Origin: Gaiellales bacterium | Lineage (GTDB): Bacteria; Actinomycetota; Thermoleophilia; Gaiellales; JAICJC01 | NCBI GenBank assembly: GCA_036273515.1 | Contig: DASUHM010000007.1 | Span: 1-64,000, forward strand | Length of the DNA stretch: 64,000 nucleotides | Reading direction: 5' to 3' | Shown: one piece after another, positions 17,541 to 55,686 of the stretch | Layout of the letters: each line of letters opens with the position of its first letter | Numbering within the stretch: position 1 is the first letter of the stretch | Position numbers and translations under genes: made by a program | Notes under the pieces: generated by a model | Told to the model about the DNA's origin: nothing | The model's database searches: none | Seen by the model: the letters and a program-made list of their open reading frames with translations, nothing else

Positions 17541-18935
17541 GTGAGCGACCTCGACCAGTTCGTCGAGGCCCCGGGGCGGTCGGATCTGGTGGCGGATGTC
17601 CGCCGCCGCATCGACGCCGAGGGCATCACCTACATCTACTACCAGTTCGTCTCGGTCACGGGCCGGATCATGGGCAAGGGCGTGCCCGCCAACCACTGGG
17701 AGACCATCGCCCAGAAGGGGTTCCAGCTGGTGTACGGCTCGACGGCCAACCTGTTCGTCGACCGCCACGGCGACTACATCGGCTACGGGCCCGAGGCCTG
17801 GGAGCTCGTCGGGATCCCCGAGCCGGAGACGTTCGCGGTGCTGCCGTGGGACCGAAAGGTGGCCCGCGTCTGGTGCACCTGCTTCCGCAACCGTGAGGAC
17901 CTCGACGGCCCCGGCGCCTTCCTGACCTCCGACTGCCGCGGCAACCTGCGCCGCCTCCAGGCCGATCTCGAAGCGCGCACCGGCATGCACCTGCGCGCCG
18001 GCATGGAGCCCGAGATGATGTGGCTCAAGCTGAACCCGGACGGCACGCCGTCGGTCGAGGGCCAGACCAAGCCCTACTGCTACCACATCGACCAGTTCTC
18101 CGAGCTCCAGCCGATCATCCACAAGGTGATCGAGTACGCCGGCGCCCTCGGCCTCGACATGATCCAGGGCGACCACGAGGACGCCCCCGGCCAGGTGGAG
18201 CTGAACTTCGGCTTCGACCGGGCCGAGGCCACCGCCGACAACCTGACGACGTTCCGGCAGGTGTGCAAGGCCGTCGGCCGCGAGCTGGGCGCCTTTCCGT
18301 GCTTCATGCCGAAGCCGTTCATGGGCGTCTCGGCCAACGGGTGCCACACAAACCTCTCGCTGTGGAAGGGCGACGAGAACCTCTTCCTGCCCGAGGGCGA
18401 CAACCCGCGCATGCCGTCGCAGCTCGGCCTGAATGCGATCGGCGGCATCCTCGAGCACCTGCGCGCGCTCACCTGCATCACGGCGCCGACGGTGAACTCG
18501 TACCGCCGCTTCTGGGAGACCGGGTTCTGGGCGCCGGTGTTCGCCGACTGGGGCTACCAGAACCGCACGACCGCCCTGCGCGTCTCCTCGCCGGACCGGT
18601 TCGAGTACCGCTCGGTCGACTCCTCGGTCAACCCGTACCTGGGCCTGGCCGCGCTGACGATCGCGATGGAGGACGGCATCAACCGCAAGCTCGATCCGGG
18701 CGATCCCGAGGAGGGCAACATCTACGAGGCGATCGCCGCCGGCAAGAAGGTCAGCCGCGTGCCGATGACGCTCGGCGAGGCGCTCCAGGCCCTCGACGAC
18801 GACGAGCTCGTGAAGTCGGCCATGCCCGGCGAGATGCTGCGCGTCTTCGAGCACTACAAGCGCGACGAGTGGGAGCGCTACTGCGGAGAGGTGTCCGACT
18901 GGGACGTCAAGGAGTACCTCGACGTCCTGCCGTAA
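17541..18935 (+). CDS. Glutamine synthetase-family amide ligase (GlnT / gamma-glutamylmethylamide synthetase-like)
   Basis: 464 aa from GTG 17541 with AAGGAGG 6 nt upstream. Glutamine synthetase folds are clear: GMEPEMMWLK (metal Glu), GDHEDAPGQVELNF, NGCHTNLSLW (ATP/metal His), and FEYRSVDSSVNPYLGLAA near the C-terminus. It joins glutamate to ammonia or an amine using ATP. It is closer in look to GlnT/GmaS proteins than to housekeeping GlnA. The downstream split glutamate-synthase genes suggest either methylamine assimilation (gamma-glutamylmethylamide) or ammonium assimilation. The stop codon overlaps the next start by one base. Confidence 0.8.
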   Translation: MSDLDQFVEAPGRSDLVADVRRRIDAEGITYIYYQFVSVTGRIMGKGVPANHWETIAQKGFQLVYGSTANLFVDRHGDYIGYGPEAWELVGIPEPETFAVLPWDRKVARVWCTCFRNREDLDGPGAFLTSDCRGNLRRLQADLEARTGMHLRAGMEPEMMWLKLNPDGTPSVEGQTKPYCYHIDQFSELQPIIHKVIEYAGALGLDMIQGDHEDAPGQVELNFGFDRAEATADNLTTFRQVCKAVGRELGAFPCFMPKPFMGVSANGCHTNLSLWKGDENLFLPEGDNPRMPSQLGLNAIGGILEHLRALTCITAPTVNSYRRFWETGFWAPVFADWGYQNRTTALRVSSPDRFEYRSVDSSVNPYLGLAALTIAMEDGINRKLDPGDPEEGNIYEAIAAGKKVSRVPMTLGEALQALDDDELVKSAMPGEMLRVFEHYKRDEWERYCGEVSDWDVKEYLDVLP

Positions 18936-20242
18936 TGCACCAAAAGGGGTCTGACCCCGTTCGGTGCGTCGATGCCCTCGCCGCGAGCCTGATCGCGGCG
19001 GGGGCGACGCCCGGTGCGGCGGTGGCCGTCGCCGACCGGGAGCGCATCCTGTGGTCGGGGCATTACGGCCAGGCCGACCCGGCGGGCACGCCGGTCGACG
19101 CCCAGACGCTGTTCGAGATCGGCTCGATCTCGAAGTCGTTCACGGCCGCCTGCCTGCTGCGCCGGTGGCGGGCAGGCGAGCTCGACCTCGACGCCGAGAT
19201 GCGGTCGGTGCTGCCGTGGTTCCCGTTCGCCGGGATCACCGTCCACCATCTGCTCAGCCACACCGGCGGGATCATCTGCAGCCTCGGCGACCCGCCCAGC
19301 CCGGCGACCGAGGTGCTGGCGTTGGCCGAGACCGCCCGGGCGCCGGTCGGCTCCGGATTCTGGTACTCGAACGCCGGCTACCAGGCGCTCGGGTGCCTGC
19401 TCGAGCGGCTGACCGGCGAGCCGTTCGCGGACACCTACCGGCGCGAGATCATCGAGCCGCTCGGCCTCGCCAACACCGAGCCGCTCACGACGATCGAGGT
19501 GCGGCCCCGGCTCGCGGTCGGGCACGAACCCTACGACGATGCCTGGCCGTGGCGACTGGGCGACCCGCTCGCTCCGGCCACGTGGGTCGAGTACACCGGC
19601 GGCGACGGCAGCGTGTGTGCGACCGTCGAGGATCTGGCCGCCTACGGGCGCAGCTTCCTCCCGGGCGACGCCGTCGCCGAGCGGATGGCGACGCCCGTCG
19701 TCGAGGACCCCGAGGACGGCAGCTGGTACGGCTACGGCGTCTGGGCGCGAACGGTCGGCGGCCGCCGCTGGGTCGGCCACAGCGGCAGCACGGTCGGCTT
19801 CCGCGCGCACCTGTGGTGCGACGTCGAGGCCGGCCTCTGCGCGGCGGCGCTCGTGAACGGCAAGACGGGGGCGAAGCTGCTCTCCGAGCTCGCGCTGCGT
19901 CTCGCCGTCGGCGACGATCCGCCCGAGCCCGAGCTCGCCGGCCTCGACGACCCGGCCGCCTCGGTCACCCTGGACGCCGAGCCGCCCGACGAGCTACGCG
20001 CGATCTGCGGCCTCTACCGCTCGCACAACCCGTGGGCGCCGACGCTGCGCGTCGCGACGACCGAGGGCCGGCCCATCGCCATCGCCTGGGGCGAGGCCGA
20101 GCCGCTGACGCCGCTCCCGGAAGGCGGCTACCGGCTGGGCACGCTGGACTGGAGCCCGGAGCGGCTGCGCTTCGAGCTGCCCCACGACGGCCGCTTCCTG
20201 CGGGCCGTGCACGGGACGACGGCGTTCCATCGGCCGGAATGA
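18935..20242 (+). CDS. Beta-lactamase-fold serine hydrolase (class C-like)
   Basis: 435 aa. The serine-hydrolase triad motifs are SISK (Ser64, Lys67), YSN (about residue 147) and HSG in GHSGSTVGF, followed by an extra C-terminal domain. No signal peptide is visible, so it is probably cytoplasmic, acting on an ester, amide or D-amino peptide. The ATG at 18935 overlaps the GS-like gene stop (TAATG). The first ten residues (MHQKGSDPVR) are encoded by a palindromic repeat element seen in other copies, so the start may have been created by that element. Confidence 0.75.
   Translation: MHQKGSDPVRCVDALAASLIAAGATPGAAVAVADRERILWSGHYGQADPAGTPVDAQTLFEIGSISKSFTAACLLRRWRAGELDLDAEMRSVLPWFPFAGITVHHLLSHTGGIICSLGDPPSPATEVLALAETARAPVGSGFWYSNAGYQALGCLLERLTGEPFADTYRREIIEPLGLANTEPLTTIEVRPRLAVGHEPYDDAWPWRLGDPLAPATWVEYTGGDGSVCATVEDLAAYGRSFLPGDAVAERMATPVVEDPEDGSWYGYGVWARTVGGRRWVGHSGSTVGFRAHLWCDVEAGLCAAALVNGKTGAKLLSELALRLAVGDDPPEPELAGLDDPAASVTLDAEPPDELRAICGLYRSHNPWAPTLRVATTEGRPIAIAWGEAEPLTPLPEGGYRLGTLDWSPERLRFELPHDGRFLRAVHGTTAFHRPE
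18937..18967. repeat. Dispersed hairpin repeat family A, copy 1
   Basis: Core AGGGGTCTGACCCC with outer arms GCACC (18937-18941) and GGTGC (18963-18967). It sits at the junction of the GS-like and serine hydrolase genes and is translated as the hydrolase N-terminus. Confidence 0.75.
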
Positions 20243-20348: not shown

Positions 20349-21278
20349 ATGTGCGGAATTGCAGGAATCATCTATCGGGACGGCGCGAACGACCTTGGCC
20401 GTGACATGACCCGCATGCTCCAGTCGATGAAGCACCGGGGCCCCGACTCCACCGGCTACGCCCTGTTCGGACCCGCGTCGAAGCCGGTCATCGTGCGGTA
20501 CAAGCTGGCCGACGCCAACGATCCCCGCGACTTCGAGTTCGCCGACCGGCTCCAGCGCCATCGCGGCGAGGTCGAGGCGCGCATGCGCGAGCTGGGCGCG
20601 ACGATCGAGTCCGTCGAGGACGAGACCGACTACGCCTACCGGGCGGTGCTGAGCTACTCCGGCGACCTGAAGCAGCTCGCCGACTACCTCGAGGACGTCC
20701 CCGGCTGCGAGGTGCTCTCGCTCGGGCACTCGCTCGAGATCGTGAAGGACCTGGGCGACGCCGAGACGGTCTCGGAGCAGTACGACCTGGGCGACTTCAC
20801 GGGCACGCACGCCATCGGCCACGTCCGCATGGCGACCGAGTCCGACGTCGACATCTCCGGCGCCCACCCCTACTGGGCCTACCCGTTCGCCGACGTCGCC
20901 GTCGTCCACAACGGCCAGCTCACCAACTACTTCCAGTGGCGGCGCCGGCTCGAGCGCTCCGGCCACCGGTTCCAGTCCGAGTGCGACTCCGAGATCATCG
21001 CCGTCTACCTGGCCGAGAAGATGGGCGAGGGCATGACGCTCGAGGAGGCCATGCGCCAGAGCCTCGAGGATCTCGACGGCGTGTTCACGTACATCTGCGT
21101 CACCAAGGACGCACTCGGCGTCGCCAAGGACGAGATGGCCGCGAAGCCGCTCGTGCTCTACGAGAGCGACGACCTGGTCGCGCTGGCGTCGGAGGAGATC
21201 GCGATCCGCGCCATCGTCGACCGCGAGATCGACACATACGACCCCTACGAGGGTGAGGTGCTGGTATGGCAGCGGTAG
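20349..21278 (+). CDS. Class II glutamine amidotransferase subunit (MgsA/GlxB-like)
   Basis: 309 aa. After Met removal, Cys2 (MCGIAGII) is the N-terminal nucleophile. KHRGPDSTGYALF, GHVRMATESDVDISGAHPY and VVHNGQLTNY are the glutaminase substrate motifs. It would release ammonia or methylamine from an amide for a partner synthase. A separate glutaminase, GXGXG and FMN subunit is the arrangement of N-methylglutamate synthase (mgsABC) and of archaeal-type split GOGAT. It overlaps the next gene by 13 bases. Confidence 0.85.
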   Translation: MCGIAGIIYRDGANDLGRDMTRMLQSMKHRGPDSTGYALFGPASKPVIVRYKLADANDPRDFEFADRLQRHRGEVEARMRELGATIESVEDETDYAYRAVLSYSGDLKQLADYLEDVPGCEVLSLGHSLEIVKDLGDAETVSEQYDLGDFTGTHAIGHVRMATESDVDISGAHPYWAYPFADVAVVHNGQLTNYFQWRRRLERSGHRFQSECDSEIIAVYLAEKMGEGMTLEEAMRQSLEDLDGVFTYICVTKDALGVAKDEMAAKPLVLYESDDLVALASEEIAIRAIVDREIDTYDPYEGEVLVWQR

Positions 21279-22054
21279 GCGAGCGGCAGATCTCCTATGA
21301 CGCCCGCGGGCTCGCGGAGCCGAATGCGGAGGTGCCCAAGGTCTCCGAGGTCGACGGCGCGAAGGCCGTCTTCGACGCGAGCGACCTGACGACGCGCCAG
21401 ATCAACCTCGAGCTGCGCTCGCTGCTCTACGAGCAGGGCGTGACCGACGTGACGGTGAAGAACCCCGGCTCGAAGCACTCGATCGGCGTCGGCATCCTCA
21501 CCCGCTGCAAGATCACGTTCGAGGGCAGCCTCGGCTACTTCGGCTGCGGGCTGATCGACGGCCCCGAGATCCACATCACCGGCCGGGTCGGATGGTCGGC
21601 GTGCGAGAACATGATGTCGGGCGTCGTCGTCATCGAGGGCAACGCCGGGTCGCTGACCGGCGCGGCGCTGCGCGGCGGCGACCTCGTCGTCAAGGGCCGC
21701 GTCGGCGCCCGCAGCGGCATCGACCAGAAGGGCGGCACGATCATCACCCTCGGCAGCGCCGGCTCGATGAACGGCTTCATGATGCAGCGCGGCCGCCAGG
21801 TGATCTGCGGCGACGTCGGCCCCGGCCTGGGCGACTCGATGTACGACGGGATCATGTACGTCGGCGGGAAGGTGAAGTCGCTCGGGATCGACTGCGTCGA
21901 GGGCGAGTGGACCGAGGCCGACACCGAGTTCATCGAGCGCAAGTTCCGCATCTACGACCTCGGCTCTCCGCCGGAGTTCCAGAAGTTCGTGTGCGGCAAG
22001 AAGCTCTACAACTACGACAACCTGGAACCGTCCGAGCGGAAGTTGGTGCTCTGA
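21266..22054 (+). CDS. Glutamate synthase GXGXG-domain subunit (MgsB/GlxC-like)
   Basis: 262 aa of right-handed beta-helix repeats: GSKHSIGVGI, GYFGCGLIDGPEI, GNAGSLTGAALRGG, GRVGARSGIDQKGG and GSAGSMNGFMM. In glutamate synthases this domain holds the catalytic units together and lines the ammonia tunnel. It ends NYDNLEPSERKLVL-stop, and the 45 bases for that ending are repeated in frame just downstream (22121-22165). Confidence 0.85.
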   Translation: MAAVGERQISYDARGLAEPNAEVPKVSEVDGAKAVFDASDLTTRQINLELRSLLYEQGVTDVTVKNPGSKHSIGVGILTRCKITFEGSLGYFGCGLIDGPEIHITGRVGWSACENMMSGVVVIEGNAGSLTGAALRGGDLVVKGRVGARSGIDQKGGTIITLGSAGSMNGFMMQRGRQVICGDVGPGLGDSMYDGIMYVGGKVKSLGIDCVEGEWTEADTEFIERKFRIYDLGSPPEFQKFVCGKKLYNYDNLEPSERKLVL

Positions 22055-22165
22055 ATGACGACGCGAGTCATCCCGGGTTTTCCCGCACGCAAGGCCGGCG
22101 CAGCCGGGCTTGCGTGGTTGAACTACGACAACCTGGAACCGTCCGAGCGAAAGCTGGTGCTGTAG
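22010..22165 (+). repeat. In-frame 45-bp duplication flanking a 66-bp hairpin insert; possible 36-aa mini-ORF
   Basis: Copy 1 (22010-22054) and copy 2 (22121-22165) both encode NYDNLEPSERKLVL-stop. They differ at five bases: three synonymous changes, and TGA versus TAG. Between them, 22055-22120 is in the same frame, begins ATG directly after the TGA and contains a hairpin (22087-22115, arms ACGCAAG/CTTGCGT plus CCGGC/GCCGG). The result is an open 36-aa frame ending directly at the ATG of the FMN subunit. It looks like insertion of a small palindromic element with local duplication. Confidence 0.85.
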
Positions 22166-23602
22166 ATGGCGCAGGACAAGACCTCCTCCAAGCGCAACGT
22201 GCTCGGGCGCAGCTCGATCTTCACGCCCGAGGTCATGAACGACATCCACGTGAAGTCCGAGCTCGGGCGCTACCGCATGCGCGGCTTCTCGATGTTCAAG
22301 CCGATCCCGCACTGGGACGAGCTCATGTTCATGCCGGGCACGCTGACCCGGTTCGTGATCGAGGGCTATCGCGAGAAGTGCGAGACGAAGACCGTGCTCG
22401 GCGCCCGGTTCGCCAAGAAGCCGATCGAGCTCGATATCCCCGTCTACATCACCGGGATGAGCTTCGGCGCCCTCTCGCTCGAGGCCAAGATGGCGCTCGC
22501 CAAGGGGGCGTCGATGGCCGGCAGCGCGACCTGCTCCGGCGAGGGCGGCATGATCCCGCCCGAGCGCGACCTGAGCACGAAGTGGTACTACCAGTGCATC
22601 CAGAGCCGGTACGGGTTCAACCCGCACCACCTGATGCTGGCGGACGCGTGCGAGTTCTTCATCGGCCAGGGCTGCAAGGTCGGCCTCGGCGGCCACCTGA
22701 TGGGCCAGAAGGTGACCGAGCAGGTGGCCGAGATGCGCTCGCTCCCGGCCGGCATCGACCAGCGCTCGCCGGCCCGTCACCCCGACTGGCTCGGCCCGGA
22801 CGACCTGTCGCTCAAGGTGCAGGAGATCCGCGAGGCGACCGACTACCAGATCCCGATCCAGCTCAAGCTGGGCGCGGCCCGCGTGTACGACGACGTGCGC
22901 ATGGCGGCCAAGTGCGGGCCGGACATCATCTACCTGGACGGCGCCGAGGGCGGCACGGGCGCGGGCCCGCACATCGCCTCGGAGGAGACCGGCATCCCGC
23001 TGATGGCCGCGATCCCGGAGGCCCGCCGGGCGCTCGAGGACGTCGGCCTGGCCGACTCCGTCGACCTCGTGGTCGCGGGCGGCATCCGAAACGGCGGCGA
23101 CATCGCCAAGTGCCTCGCGCTCGGCGCGAAGGCGGTCGCGATCGGCCACTCGGCCCTGATGGCGCTCAACTGCAACAAGGAGATCCCGGGCGTCACCGAC
23201 TACGAGGGCACGATCGGCGTGCCCGCCGGCGAGTGCTACCACTGCCACACGGGCCGGTGCCCGGTCGGGATCACGACGCAGGATCCCGAGCTGCGCAAGC
23301 GCCTCATCGTCGACGAGGCCGCGGAGCGGGTCTACAACTTCCTGCACACGCTCACGCTCGAGGTGCAGATGCTCGCGCGCGCGTGCGGCAAGACCAACAT
23401 CCACAGCCTCGAGCCCGAGGATCTGTGCGCGCTCACCACCGAGGCCGCGGCGATGGCGAAGGTGCCGCTGGCCGGCACCGACTACATCCCCGGCGTCACC
23501 GAGCGCGAGACGCTGTCCGAGATCCGCCGCCTCCTCGAGAAGAAGCACGAGGAGGAGGCCGTGACCCACGTCGGCCGCCCGCTCGAGGCGGCGGGGGAGT
23601 AG
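22166..23602 (+). CDS. FMN/iron-sulfur glutamate synthase-type subunit (MgsC/GlxD-like)
   Basis: 478 aa. TIM-barrel FMN domain with TGMSFGALSLEAKMALAKGA, GEGGMIPPER, QIKLKLG-type IQLKLGAARV, DGAEGGTGAGP and GGIRNGGDIAKCLALGAKAV. The Fe-S cluster Cys are in CYHCHTGRCPVGITTQ (Cys357, 360, 365). It reduces the 2-oxoglutarate-amine adduct to glutamate or N-methylglutamate. The ATG abuts the TAG of the duplicated tail upstream. Confidence 0.88.
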   Translation: MAQDKTSSKRNVLGRSSIFTPEVMNDIHVKSELGRYRMRGFSMFKPIPHWDELMFMPGTLTRFVIEGYREKCETKTVLGARFAKKPIELDIPVYITGMSFGALSLEAKMALAKGASMAGSATCSGEGGMIPPERDLSTKWYYQCIQSRYGFNPHHLMLADACEFFIGQGCKVGLGGHLMGQKVTEQVAEMRSLPAGIDQRSPARHPDWLGPDDLSLKVQEIREATDYQIPIQLKLGAARVYDDVRMAAKCGPDIIYLDGAEGGTGAGPHIASEETGIPLMAAIPEARRALEDVGLADSVDLVVAGGIRNGGDIAKCLALGAKAVAIGHSALMALNCNKEIPGVTDYEGTIGVPAGECYHCHTGRCPVGITTQDPELRKRLIVDEAAERVYNFLHTLTLEVQMLARACGKTNIHSLEPEDLCALTTEAAAMAKVPLAGTDYIPGVTERETLSEIRRLLEKKHEEEAVTHVGRPLEAAGE

Positions 23603-23605
23603 AGC

Positions 23606-24028
23606 ATGGCCGAAGAACGCCACATCGCAATCGACGCCGAGACGCTCGCGGGGAAGCGCTTCCCCTACCAGGAGGACATGTCCCTGATCGACGACGTCGA
23701 CCTCCTGGCCGCGACGCCGGGCGACGACATCAACTGGCTCGAGGACATCGAGCTGCTCGAGGAGGAGGGTGTGCCGGCGGTGTTCGACCGCTACTCGAAC
23801 TCCTTCCTGCGCATCTACTTTCCCGTCCCCGAGGGGCGGGGCAACGAGATCGCCCGCAAGGTGCTCATCAAGCACCTCCAGTCCGGCAACTCCTACGGCA
23901 TCCAGCTGAAGTCGCAGCACTGCAAGTTCCCGCAGCCCGAGCTCGGCTCCTGGGTGCCGAACTCGGCGACCGTGGGGGCGGACTGGAAGCCGCCCGTGCT
24001 GGAGGGCTGGGAGGCCCCGCTGCACTGA
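23606..24028 (+). CDS. Unrecognised 140-aa acidic protein of the glutamate-synthase-like operon
   Basis: No family recognised. It starts MAEERHIAIDAETLAGKRFP and has an acidic middle (LIDDVDLLAATPGDDINWLEDIELLEEEG) and a C-terminal half with aromatic and Pro-rich segments (SQHCKFPQPELGSW). No membrane segment or signal is seen. It starts 4 bases after the FMN subunit and keeps strong codon bias, so it is a genuine operon member, perhaps a fourth subunit or an electron-donor adaptor. Confidence 0.7.
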   Translation: MAEERHIAIDAETLAGKRFPYQEDMSLIDDVDLLAATPGDDINWLEDIELLEEEGVPAVFDRYSNSFLRIYFPVPEGRGNEIARKVLIKHLQSGNSYGIQLKSQHCKFPQPELGSWVPNSATVGADWKPPVLEGWEAPLH

Positions 24029-31663: not shown

Positions 31664-31698
31664 ACGCACCAAACGGGGTCAGACCCCTATTGGTGCGT
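31664..31698. repeat. Hairpin repeat family A, copy 2
   Basis: Outer arms ACGCACCAA/TTGGTGCGT (9 bp) enclose core GGGGTCAGACCCC. It lies 14 bases after the flavin reductase stop. Confidence 0.75.
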
Positions 31699-31701
31699 CA
31701 C

Positions 31702-31734
31702 CCCGCCATTAGGGGTCTGACCCCGTTTGGCGGG
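31702..31734. repeat. Hairpin repeat family A, copy 3 (head-to-head with copy 2)
   Basis: Outer arms CCCGCCA/TGGCGGG enclose core AGGGGTCTGACCCC. Its inner part is the reverse complement of copy 2, giving a paired, BIME-like arrangement between convergent genes. Confidence 0.75.
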
Positions 31735-50398: not shown

Positions 50399-52041
50399 GA
50401 CGCGCGGCGCTGGCCGCGATCCTGGCCACCGGCCTCGTGGCGGCCGGGTGCGGCGGGAGCGGCAGCGGGAGCGGCGGCAGCAGTGGGTCGTCCGGGGCGC
50501 CGGTCGACGGCGGCACCCTGCGCGCCGGGATCCCCGACAACCCGGACTACCTCGACCCGGGCCTGTCGTACACGAACGAGGGCTGGGAGATCCTCGAGGC
50601 GACGAACAACGGCCTGCTCACGTTCAAGAAGGCCGCCGGCGGCGAGGGCGCGCAGATCGTGCCCGACATCGCCACGGCCATGCCGGCCGTGACCGGCGGC
50701 GGCAAGACCTACACCTTCCATGTCCGCCCGAACGTGATGTTCTCGCCGCCGGTCAACCGGGCGGTGAAGCCGTCCGACTTCAAGTTCTCGATCGAGCGCC
50801 TGTTCCGGATCGACTCCGGCGGCCTCTCGTTCTTCACCGGCATCGAGGGCGCGAACGCCTACGCCAAGAGCCGGAAGGGTGGCATCTCGGGCATCGTCGC
50901 GAACGACGCCAAGGGCACGATCACGTTCCACCTGACCCAGCCCGACGGCACCTTCCTCGACTACATGGCGACGCCGTTCGCGTTCGTCCTGCCCGCCGGG
51001 ACGCCGTCGAAGGACATCTCCACGCTGCCGCAGTGGCGCATCGCCACGGGCCCGTACCGGGTGTCGAGCTACACGCCCAAGCAGCAGCTCGTCATCACCC
51101 GCAACCCGAACTTCCACCAGTGGACAAGCGACTCGCCGAACGGCCACCTGAACCAGATCGACGTCCAGATCGGCGTCACGCCCGAGCAGTCGGTGAACGA
51201 GATCGCCGACGGCCAGCTCGACTGGTACTTCGAGGCGGTGCCGCCCGACCGGCTGACCGAGCTTCGGGCCCGCTACCCCGACCAGGTGCACCTCTTCACG
51301 CGCAACAACACGACCTACTTCGTGATGAACGAGCGGCTGGCGCCGTTCAACAAGCTGGCCGTGCGCCAGGCCGTGAACTACGCCATCGACCGAAACGCGC
51401 TGGTAAAGATCTTCGGCGGCCAGGGCACGCCCACCGAGAACATCGTCCCGCCCGGGTTCGGCTCGGCCTACAAGCCGCACCACCTCTACCCGCACGACAT
51501 CGCCAAGGCCAGGCAGCTGATCCGGCAGGCCGGGGTGGAGGGCGTGAACGTGACCGTCTGGGGGCACAACACCGACCCGACGCCGAAGGCGGTGCAGTAC
51601 GTGGCCGGCGTGCTCAACCAGATCGGCCTGCACGCGACGGTGAAGACCGAGGACGAGTCCGTCTACTGGCCGACGATCTCGACCCAGAAGGGCGACCCCC
51701 AGATCGCCTTCAACGACTGGAACGAGGACTACCCCGAGGCCCAGGACTGGTTCGACGTGCTGCTGAACGGCGAGCACATCGTGAACGTCGGCAACAACAA
51801 CGTCTCGAACACGAACATCCCCGCCTACAACCAGATGATCGACCGGGCCAAGCGGATGCCGCTCGGTCCGGCCCGGAACGCCGTCTGGGCGAAGCTCGAC
51901 TACCTGTACATGAAGAACGACGCCGGCTGGGCGCCGTTCATGAACCGGCAGTGGCCGAAGTTCGTCTCGCCGCACCTGCACGGGCTGGTCTTCAACGGCA
52001 CGTACTTCGAGCTCTTCCCGTCGATGTGGCTCTCGCAGTGA
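50395..52041 (+). CDS. Peptide/opine-type ABC substrate-binding lipoprotein 1
   Basis: 548 aa. Lipoprotein signal with lipobox LVAAGC (Cys about 18), Gly/Ser linker, then a family 5 binding domain (GGTLRAGIPDNPDYLDPGLS, TYTFHVRPNVMFSPPVNR, FAFVLPAGTPSKD, WRIATGPYRVSSY). It captures a peptide-like ligand outside the membrane. It is a close paralog of the second binding protein at 54049. Confidence 0.9.
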   Translation: MRRAALAAILATGLVAAGCGGSGSGSGGSSGSSGAPVDGGTLRAGIPDNPDYLDPGLSYTNEGWEILEATNNGLLTFKKAAGGEGAQIVPDIATAMPAVTGGGKTYTFHVRPNVMFSPPVNRAVKPSDFKFSIERLFRIDSGGLSFFTGIEGANAYAKSRKGGISGIVANDAKGTITFHLTQPDGTFLDYMATPFAFVLPAGTPSKDISTLPQWRIATGPYRVSSYTPKQQLVITRNPNFHQWTSDSPNGHLNQIDVQIGVTPEQSVNEIADGQLDWYFEAVPPDRLTELRARYPDQVHLFTRNNTTYFVMNERLAPFNKLAVRQAVNYAIDRNALVKIFGGQGTPTENIVPPGFGSAYKPHHLYPHDIAKARQLIRQAGVEGVNVTVWGHNTDPTPKAVQYVAGVLNQIGLHATVKTEDESVYWPTISTQKGDPQIAFNDWNEDYPEAQDWFDVLLNGEHIVNVGNNNVSNTNIPAYNQMIDRAKRMPLGPARNAVWAKLDYLYMKNDAGWAPFMNRQWPKFVSPHLHGLVFNGTYFELFPSMWLSQ

Positions 52042-54048: not shown

Positions 54049-55686
54049 ATGGTGAGACGCGCGCTTTGGGTTCTGGCCGTGGCGCTGCTCGCGGCCGGAT
54101 GCGGTTCCGGATCGGGGTCGAGCTCCGGCGGGAGCGGCGGGGTGCAGAACGGCGGCACGCTGCGCGCCGGGATCCCGGACGACCCCGACCACCTCGACAC
54201 CGGCATCTCCTACGCCGTCGAGGGCTGGGAGCTGCTCGAGGCGACGAACAACGGCCTGCTGACGTTCAAGAAGGCCTCGGGGTCGGCCGGCTCCGAGGTC
54301 GTTCCCGACATCGCCACCGCGATGCCGGCGGTGACCGACGGCGGCCTGACCTATACGTTCCACGTCCATCCCGGCGTGCGCTTCTCGCCGCCGGTCAACC
54401 GGGCGGTGAAGCCGTCCGACTTCCAGTTCGCGATCGAGCGGCTGTTCCACGTCGGCTCGCCCGGCGTCGGCTTCTACACGATCATCCAGGGCGCGAACGC
54501 CTACGCCGCCCACAAGGCGGCACACATCTCGGGGATCGTCGCCAACGACCAGGCGATGACGATCGCCTTCCACCTGACCCACCCCGACGGCGCGTTCCTG
54601 GACATCATGGCGATGCCGTTCGCCTTCGCCGTGCCGGCCGGCATGCCGTACAAGGACATCTCGACGGATCCGCAGTGGCGGGTCGCGACCGGGCCGTACA
54701 TGGTGAAGACCTACGTGCCCAAGCAGCAGATCGTGCTGGTGCGAAACCCCAACTTCACGCAGTGGTCGCCGAACTCGCCGAACGGCCACCTGAACGGGGT
54801 GAACATCCAGATCGGGGTGACGCCCGAGCAGTCCGTGAACGAGACGATCGACGGCCAGCTCGACTGGTACATGGAGGCGGTGCCGCCCGACCGGTTGACG
54901 GCGCTCAAGGCCCGCTACCCGAGCCAGGTGCACATGTACCCGCGCAACAACGACACCTACTTCTCGATGAACGAGCGGCTGGCGCCGTTCAACAAGCTCG
55001 CGGTGCGCCAGGCGGTGAACTACGCCATCGACCGAAACGCGCTCGTGAAGCTCTTCGGCGGCCAGGGCACGCCCACCGAGACGGTGATCCCGCCGAGCTT
55101 CGGCTCGGCCTACCACGAGCCGAACCTGTACCCGCACGACGTCGCCAAGGCCAAGCAGCTGATCCAGCAGGCGGGTGCGGTCGGCGCGCCGGTGCAGATC
55201 TGGACGACGAACGCCGACCCGGCGCCCAAGGCGGCCCAGTACCTGGCGAGCGTGCTGGGCTCGATCGGCCTCAAGGTCACCGGCGTGCGCACGATCGACG
55301 ACTCGGTCTACTGGGACACCCTGCTGTCCGAGAAGACCGATCCCCAGATCGCCTTCAACCACTTCGACCAGGACTACCCGGAGGGCGAGGACTTCATCGA
55401 TACTCTGCTGAACGGTGAGCACATCGTGAACGTGGGGAACAACGACGTCTCGAACACCGACGATCCGGCGCTGAACGCGATGATCGACCGCACCAAGCGG
55501 ATGCCGCTCGGCGCCGCCCGCAACGCCATGTGGGCGAAGATCGACAACCAGTTCATGCAGCGCGACGCGGGCTGGGCGCCGTTCATGCACCTCGACGAGC
55601 CGAAGTTCGTGTCGGCCAATCTGCACGGCCTCGTCTTCACGGGCTCCTATTTCGAGCTTCTACCGGAGATGTGGCTCTCGAGGTGA
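54049..55686 (+). CDS. Peptide/opine-type ABC substrate-binding lipoprotein 2
   Basis: 545 aa from ATG 54049 with GGAGGGAAG upstream. Lipobox LLAAGC, then a family 5 domain closely similar to binding protein 1 along its whole length (shared NGGTLRAGIPD, RAVKPSDF, PSNNGHLN-type, RLAPFNKLAVRQAVNYAIDRNAL, LHGLVF). Probably a duplicate with shifted ligand range, sharing one permease pair. Confidence 0.9.
   Translation: MVRRALWVLAVALLAAGCGSGSGSSSGGSGGVQNGGTLRAGIPDDPDHLDTGISYAVEGWELLEATNNGLLTFKKASGSAGSEVVPDIATAMPAVTDGGLTYTFHVHPGVRFSPPVNRAVKPSDFQFAIERLFHVGSPGVGFYTIIQGANAYAAHKAAHISGIVANDQAMTIAFHLTHPDGAFLDIMAMPFAFAVPAGMPYKDISTDPQWRVATGPYMVKTYVPKQQIVLVRNPNFTQWSPNSPNGHLNGVNIQIGVTPEQSVNETIDGQLDWYMEAVPPDRLTALKARYPSQVHMYPRNNDTYFSMNERLAPFNKLAVRQAVNYAIDRNALVKLFGGQGTPTETVIPPSFGSAYHEPNLYPHDVAKAKQLIQQAGAVGAPVQIWTTNADPAPKAAQYLASVLGSIGLKVTGVRTIDDSVYWDTLLSEKTDPQIAFNHFDQDYPEGEDFIDTLLNGEHIVNVGNNDVSNTDDPALNAMIDRTKRMPLGAARNAMWAKIDNQFMQRDAGWAPFMHLDEPKFVSANLHGLVFTGSYFELLPEMWLSR

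Follow-up and report, generated by a model that had tools for sequence, protein, structure and literature searches.

Some integrative elements bring a replacement 3' end, that is, a second, synonymously diverged gene end that flanks the insert; Rickettsia-type palindromic elements are short, hairpin-bearing inserts that are compatible with an open frame and that form dispersed families inside proteins. Touching genes can also be linked through translational termination and reinitiation. Published reporter assays on six gene pairs, from E. coli and Haloferax, saw reinitiation all but disappear at a spacing of about 20 nt, and for two E. coli pairs the upstream gene's final 15 nt were enough; such coupling is frequent among the subunits of one complex (PMC10666635). 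The contribution of intragenic Shine–Dalgarno (SD) sequences is variable and often strong (PMC6728339), and MIRU repeats couple neighbouring genes through an internal ORF (PMC12548453).

The locus described here lies in a window of 64,000 nucleotides (the whole stretch of DNA that was analysed) and concerns the junction of two genes, glxC and glxD, at which the end of glxC is present twice around a short insert. It resembles termination-reinitiation at touching genes in its stop/start contact, in an SD segment within the end of the upstream gene and in joining subunits of one complex (PMC10666635, PMC6728339), and would differ in that the usual single hand-over is replaced by two in series, by way of a 36-codon ORF whose end repeats the tail of the upstream gene. 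Its likeness to MIRUs is one of arrangement: a short intergenic insert, an ORF inside it that meets the gene on either side with its start and stop codons, and coupling that would survive the insertion (PMC12548453). However, the window's insert comes with a repeat of the upstream tail, its codons abut rather than overlap, and it is single-copy in its genome where MIRUs have many dispersed copies. Because of this last difference we do not file it as a MIRU, although MIRUs appear to be the closest precedent. Nor was a dispersed family found of the kind that defines palindromic repeat elements of the REP or RPE type, and the insert is unlike the genome's own GGGGTCTGACCCC family. It shares a hairpin and an open frame with the Rickettsia-type elements but is single-copy and lies between genes; it shares a second tail with the integrative elements but is only 66 bp long and has no integrase or endonuclease. 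A literature search found no described case of gene-tail duplication at overlapping genes.

The operon and its duplicated gene end

The source genome is a 4.07-Mb draft in 98 contigs with 3.9% contamination, and the closest named relatives of its GXGXG gene belong to Thermoleophilia/Gaiellales and to other actinobacterial metagenome genomes. The locus is a glutamate-synthase-like operon which, by gene content, we take to be a candidate gene set of the GlxABCD or N-methylglutamate-synthase (MgsABC) type. Its features in the window are as follows.

17541-18935: glutamine-synthetase-like gene
20349..21278, + strand: class II glutamine amidotransferase subunit gene (GlxB/MgsA-like; GATase_6, GATase_7)
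21266..22054, + strand: GXGXG subunit gene, glxC (GlxC/MgsB-like; PF01493), with tail copy 1 as its own C-terminus
22010-22054, + strand: tail copy 1, 45 bp, NYDNLEPSERKLVL plus TGA
22055-22120, + strand: insert, 66 bp, single copy in the genome, with an ATG directly after the TGA
22055..22165, + strand: mini-ORF of 36 codons, MTTRVIPGFPARKAGAAGLAW-LNYDNLEPSERKLVL, the proposed relay ORF, predicted to be translated
22086-22116, + strand: hairpin of 31 nt, with 8 bp and 5 bp of stem on either side of one mismatch and a 3-nt loop, GCA
22121-22165, + strand: tail copy 2, 45 bp, ending in TAG and adjoining the GlxD ATG at 22166
22166..23602, + strand: FMN/Glu_synthase-domain subunit gene, glxD (GlxD/MgsC-like; PF01645)
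23606-24028: operon gene for a 140-aa protein without Pfam or NCBIfam match

The operon's other junctions are likewise tight: the end of the GlxB/MgsA-like gene overlaps the start of glxC by 13 nt, and only 3 nt separate glxD from the next gene. A sequence-only reading had reported that the last 15 codons of the GXGXG gene occur twice, in frame and 111 bp apart, that the copies differ just by synonymous changes and the stop codon, and that the second copy adjoins the ATG of the next gene; the coordinates bear this out in full. The copies differ at five of 45 positions (30, 34, 42, 44 and 45), giving the codon pairs CGG/CGA, TTG/CTG and CTC/CTG, all synonymous, and TGA/TAG, in which two of the positions fall. 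Three random sense changes would all be synonymous with P about 0.02. The first 29 bp are identical and all five differences lie in the last 16 bp, a clustering expected of five random sites with P about 0.004. The 45-bp repeat is not due to chance, since in a census of 864 kb of the 4.07-Mb source genome only four repeat pairs within 400 bp reached at least 29 identical bases. Of the other long local repeats in this sample, those inspected were ordinary: a Clp-N-type protein in L180 has internal repeats, and in L207 a diverged tandem repeat of 266 bp precedes a gene.

The 66-bp segment between the copies does open with ATG right after TGA, as had been noted, and its hairpin is real, being slightly longer (31 nt) than the 29 bp first given. 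The hairpin has an energy of -25.9 kcal/mol (22085-22117) and the whole 66-nt insert a folding z of -3.2; the larger RNA fold of 21990-22210 is unremarkable (z = -1.0). A search of Rfam returned no match for hairpin or insert, and the hairpin does not look like an intrinsic terminator: there is no T-run, and the stem is followed by GTTGAACT. An open frame through 66 bp is expected by chance with P about 0.2, and the open frame of the insert alone is thus unremarkable. The 36-aa ORF matched no family in NCBIfam or Pfam.

A search for the 66-bp element elsewhere in the genome, which the sequence-only reading had proposed, showed it to be single-copy and so not a dispersed element. Of 128 further genomes from the order none matched it in full (20-31-base partial matches occurred in three), and blastn against plasmids and phages gave no match. 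Several lesser resemblances were rejected on inspection. Short matches in its own genome were mostly GGCCGGCGCAGCCGG-like coding sequence and, after 20 had been inspected, were put down to chance; an exact 18-mer of the insert had two matches in viral contigs, both unrelated and without the hairpin; and the likeness of 'ATGACGACG...' to the MTTSDRYD-type GlxD starts of some relatives was rejected by eye, as the agreement ends after three codons.

Junction types and inserts in relatives

Orthologues of the GXGXG gene are 80-90% identical and of the same length as the gene ending with copy 1. Homologues share a conserved C-terminus, NYDxLEPxERKLVL, some being one residue longer (...LVIH), and none of those compared carries a C-terminal extension. 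Because they end at this motif, copy 1 alone is predicted to give a complete GlxC protein. We compared 86 non-redundant homologous junctions besides the window's two, gathered from genomes within the order and class together with 80 GTDB loci; the hairpin-free relatives whose comparison had been suggested do exist, and a single tail is present at all 86 junctions. In a sample of 397 genomes spread over the phylum the two-tail pattern (93-123 bases apart) was found in the window only, the other 396 being without it. Both other genomes of the same genus are without a glxC gene, so there is no close insert-free sister. The position of copy 2 is that of the single tail in relatives with touching genes.

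Junctions in relatives are of two types: either the GlxC stop touches the GlxD start or a spacer lies between them. In the spaced type, to which the same-family relatives L010 and L011 belong (anti-SD pairing -1.9 and -4.5 kcal/mol), the codons for the terminal Leu-Val are mostly CTC-GTx, and an SD-like stretch then commonly precedes the glxD ATG. Where the genes touch, with the stop overlapping or adjoining the glxD start, the ribosome-binding segment must sit inside glxC. Codon choice follows this division, with YTG-GTN used for Leu-Val in 15 of 18 touching or overlapping relatives versus 6 of 68 spaced ones (counts that ignore shared ancestry, so that a Fisher test on them gives no true probability). 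Mean anti-SD pairing over the last six sense codons, computed with a generic 16S tail, was -8.0 kcal/mol in the touching type versus -3.3 kcal/mol in the spaced type, the means including the window's two rows.

By these measures both tails of the window are of the touching type. The SD-like codons of copy 1 (CGG AAG TTG GTG CTC) pair at -8.0 kcal/mol and those of copy 2 (CGA AAG CTG GTG CTG) at -7.2 kcal/mol; 9% and 19%, respectively, of random synonymous recodings pair as well, which makes them good SD segments and not extreme ones. Stop and start codons are in contact at both ends of the mini-ORF (TGA|ATG and TAG|ATG, 0 nt each). The window has two of the marks of a coupled pair, a stop and start within a few nt of each other and an SD-like segment inside the end of the upstream ORF.

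Palindromic inserts directly after the glxC stop were also found at three other loci, L063, L078 and L162, all with touching-type codons. In each an SD-like stretch lies in front of the glxD ATG that the insert has moved away, and the glxC tail keeps its old SD-like codons. Uninserted counterparts are known for L063 (L106 and L053, of the same genus group) and for L162 of Pseudonocardia eucalypti (L139 of Pseudonocardia acaciae). The L063 insert consists of palindromes that are scattered through its own genome (14 matches), and that of L078 does not; the L162 insert has a very long, perfect-looking stem. By this comparison the glxC-glxD junction is one that takes inserts repeatedly. The window appears to handle its insert differently from these three, with the tail repeated and the tail copy, as we read it, supplying the SD segment. 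A further idea, that the end of copy 1 came from an L063-like donor (24 identical nt), was dropped because the same unusual codons recur in L139 of P. acaciae and fit SD selection at touching junctions.

A proposed translation relay and its alternatives

The best explanation in our judgement, with a probability of about one half, is a translation relay across the insert that would keep glxC and glxD translationally coupled. In the ancestral state we infer, the end of glxC touched the glxD start and the last glxC codons doubled as the SD segment of glxD. The presence of touching-type codons in both copies suggests that the genes touched before the duplication. Next, a hairpin-bearing stretch of 66 bp and a repeat of the 45-bp tail would have come to lie between the two genes. 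Copy 1 would finish the GlxC protein and must be kept because that C-terminus is conserved; copy 2 would be no part of GlxC and would carry the SD segment and stop codon for reinitiation on glxD. Ribosomes that end GlxC at TGA may begin again at the adjoining ATG and pass through the 36-codon mini-ORF, unfolding the hairpin as they go; on reaching TAG they would start once more at the adjoining glxD ATG, and coupling would so survive the insertion. A mini-protein had been offered as the product of this segment; the 36-codon ORF is present, but the stop/start contacts at both its ends are better read as such a relay.

Judged by the published spacing limit of about 20 nt and by the 15 nt of upstream gene that were enough in two E. 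coli pairs (PMC10666635), the 66-nt insert should have uncoupled glxC from glxD, and a tail copy closing the mini-ORF should restore the coupling. Against the relay stand the single instance and the good but not extreme SD pairing of both copies; the nearest relatives are spaced, so that a touching ancestor is deduced from codon choice; and the relay does not account for the way the differences crowd into the last 16 bp. More tentatively, and at less than even odds, tail copying may be one means by which touching genes accept an insertion, one copy serving as the protein end and the other as a reinitiation module closing the new mini-ORF, with the hairpin-spanning relay perhaps tuning the GlxC to GlxD ratio.

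A serious rival, though we rate it well short of even, is that the arrangement is a neutral scar of break repair (staggered-end fill-in plus filler DNA) or of replication template switching, in which mini-ORF and hairpin are idle. It shares its origin part with the relay and differs on function only. The genome encodes Ku, so break repair could reasonably have left a 45-bp duplication on either side of 66 bp; the insert is unique, the arrangement occurs in one genome only and the frame would be open across the insert about 20% of the time. A scar could also persist, because GlxC is complete with copy 1 and the start of glxD is undisturbed behind copy 2. However, a drifting copy 2 would not need all its differences to be synonymous or confined to the stop codon (P about 0.02), and an ATG adjoins the stop of both copies. 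If the insert were the remnant of a mobile or integrative element with a replacement 3' end, integration would be expected to leave the pattern seen here, 29 identical bp and then 16 bp that diverge without altering the protein. The 29 bp would then be the core of the crossover, the element would have brought the last 16 bp of copy 1, and copy 2 would be the displaced original. Palindromic inserts at the same junction in other lineages, that of L063 being built of dispersed palindromes, point the same way, yet an insert of 66 bp with no recombinase and with no second copy or relative in its own genome, the order, plasmids or phages makes this origin improbable.

A role for the hairpin itself in mRNA processing or stability, by which it would set the GlxC to GlxD ratio while the tail copy was incidental, seems more improbable still. 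The hairpin is strong (z = -3.2) and palindromes recur at this junction in L063, L078 and L162, but these hairpins are conserved in neither sequence nor position, and the one in the window has no terminator-like T-run and no Rfam match. An assembly artefact arising from strain variants in the metagenome might be suspected from the 98-contig draft, its 3.9% contamination and the 29-bp identical block, which is the size of a short assembly k-mer. A false join via a 29-mer would still need a real molecule in which the insert end is joined to the tail (GTGGTTG-AACTACG), and the genome has no second locus with that join; we regard an artefact as very unlikely. Programmed readthrough of the TGA, which the sequence-only reading had raised, would add 36-37 residues with a second tail to GlxC, which has 262 residues without them. 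The frame is open to TAG and the duplicated tail keeps its amino-acid sequence, but homologues end at NYDxLEPxERKLVL and no relative is extended; an ATG adjoining a stop, as at this TGA, favours reinitiation over readthrough, and we give readthrough hardly any credence.

The arrangement, then, appears real and rare and the relay plausible, as a one-off and not as a new system. Where genes touch, the same DNA serves as the end of one protein gene and as the start signal of the next, and such a junction should resist insertions; the window suggests an escape route in which the two roles are separated by copying the shared segment. The suggestion comes from one case in one draft metagenome genome and is limited in reach accordingly; the natural contrasts among relatives (touching, spaced, and palindrome with a new SD) make it testable.

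Other repeats in the window and genome

The palindrome GGGGTCTGACCCC has about 261 copies in the source genome, where the reversed control sequence has none, and these often form pairs with a spacing of about 50 bp; in the window it lies at 18946-18958, 31675-31687 and 31712-31724. Two Y1_Tnp (RAYT-like) genes, at C8:47165-47980 and C8:68845-69489, are each bracketed by it, and together they probably represent a REPIN/RAYT-type system in an actinobacterium. The window also contains a diverged duplication of at least 1.4 kb (50507-51951 and 54149-55596, 78-83% identical in blocks and 3.64 kb apart) and, at 1198-1371, a low-complexity array of GGCTCC/GGCTCG hexamer-like repeats.
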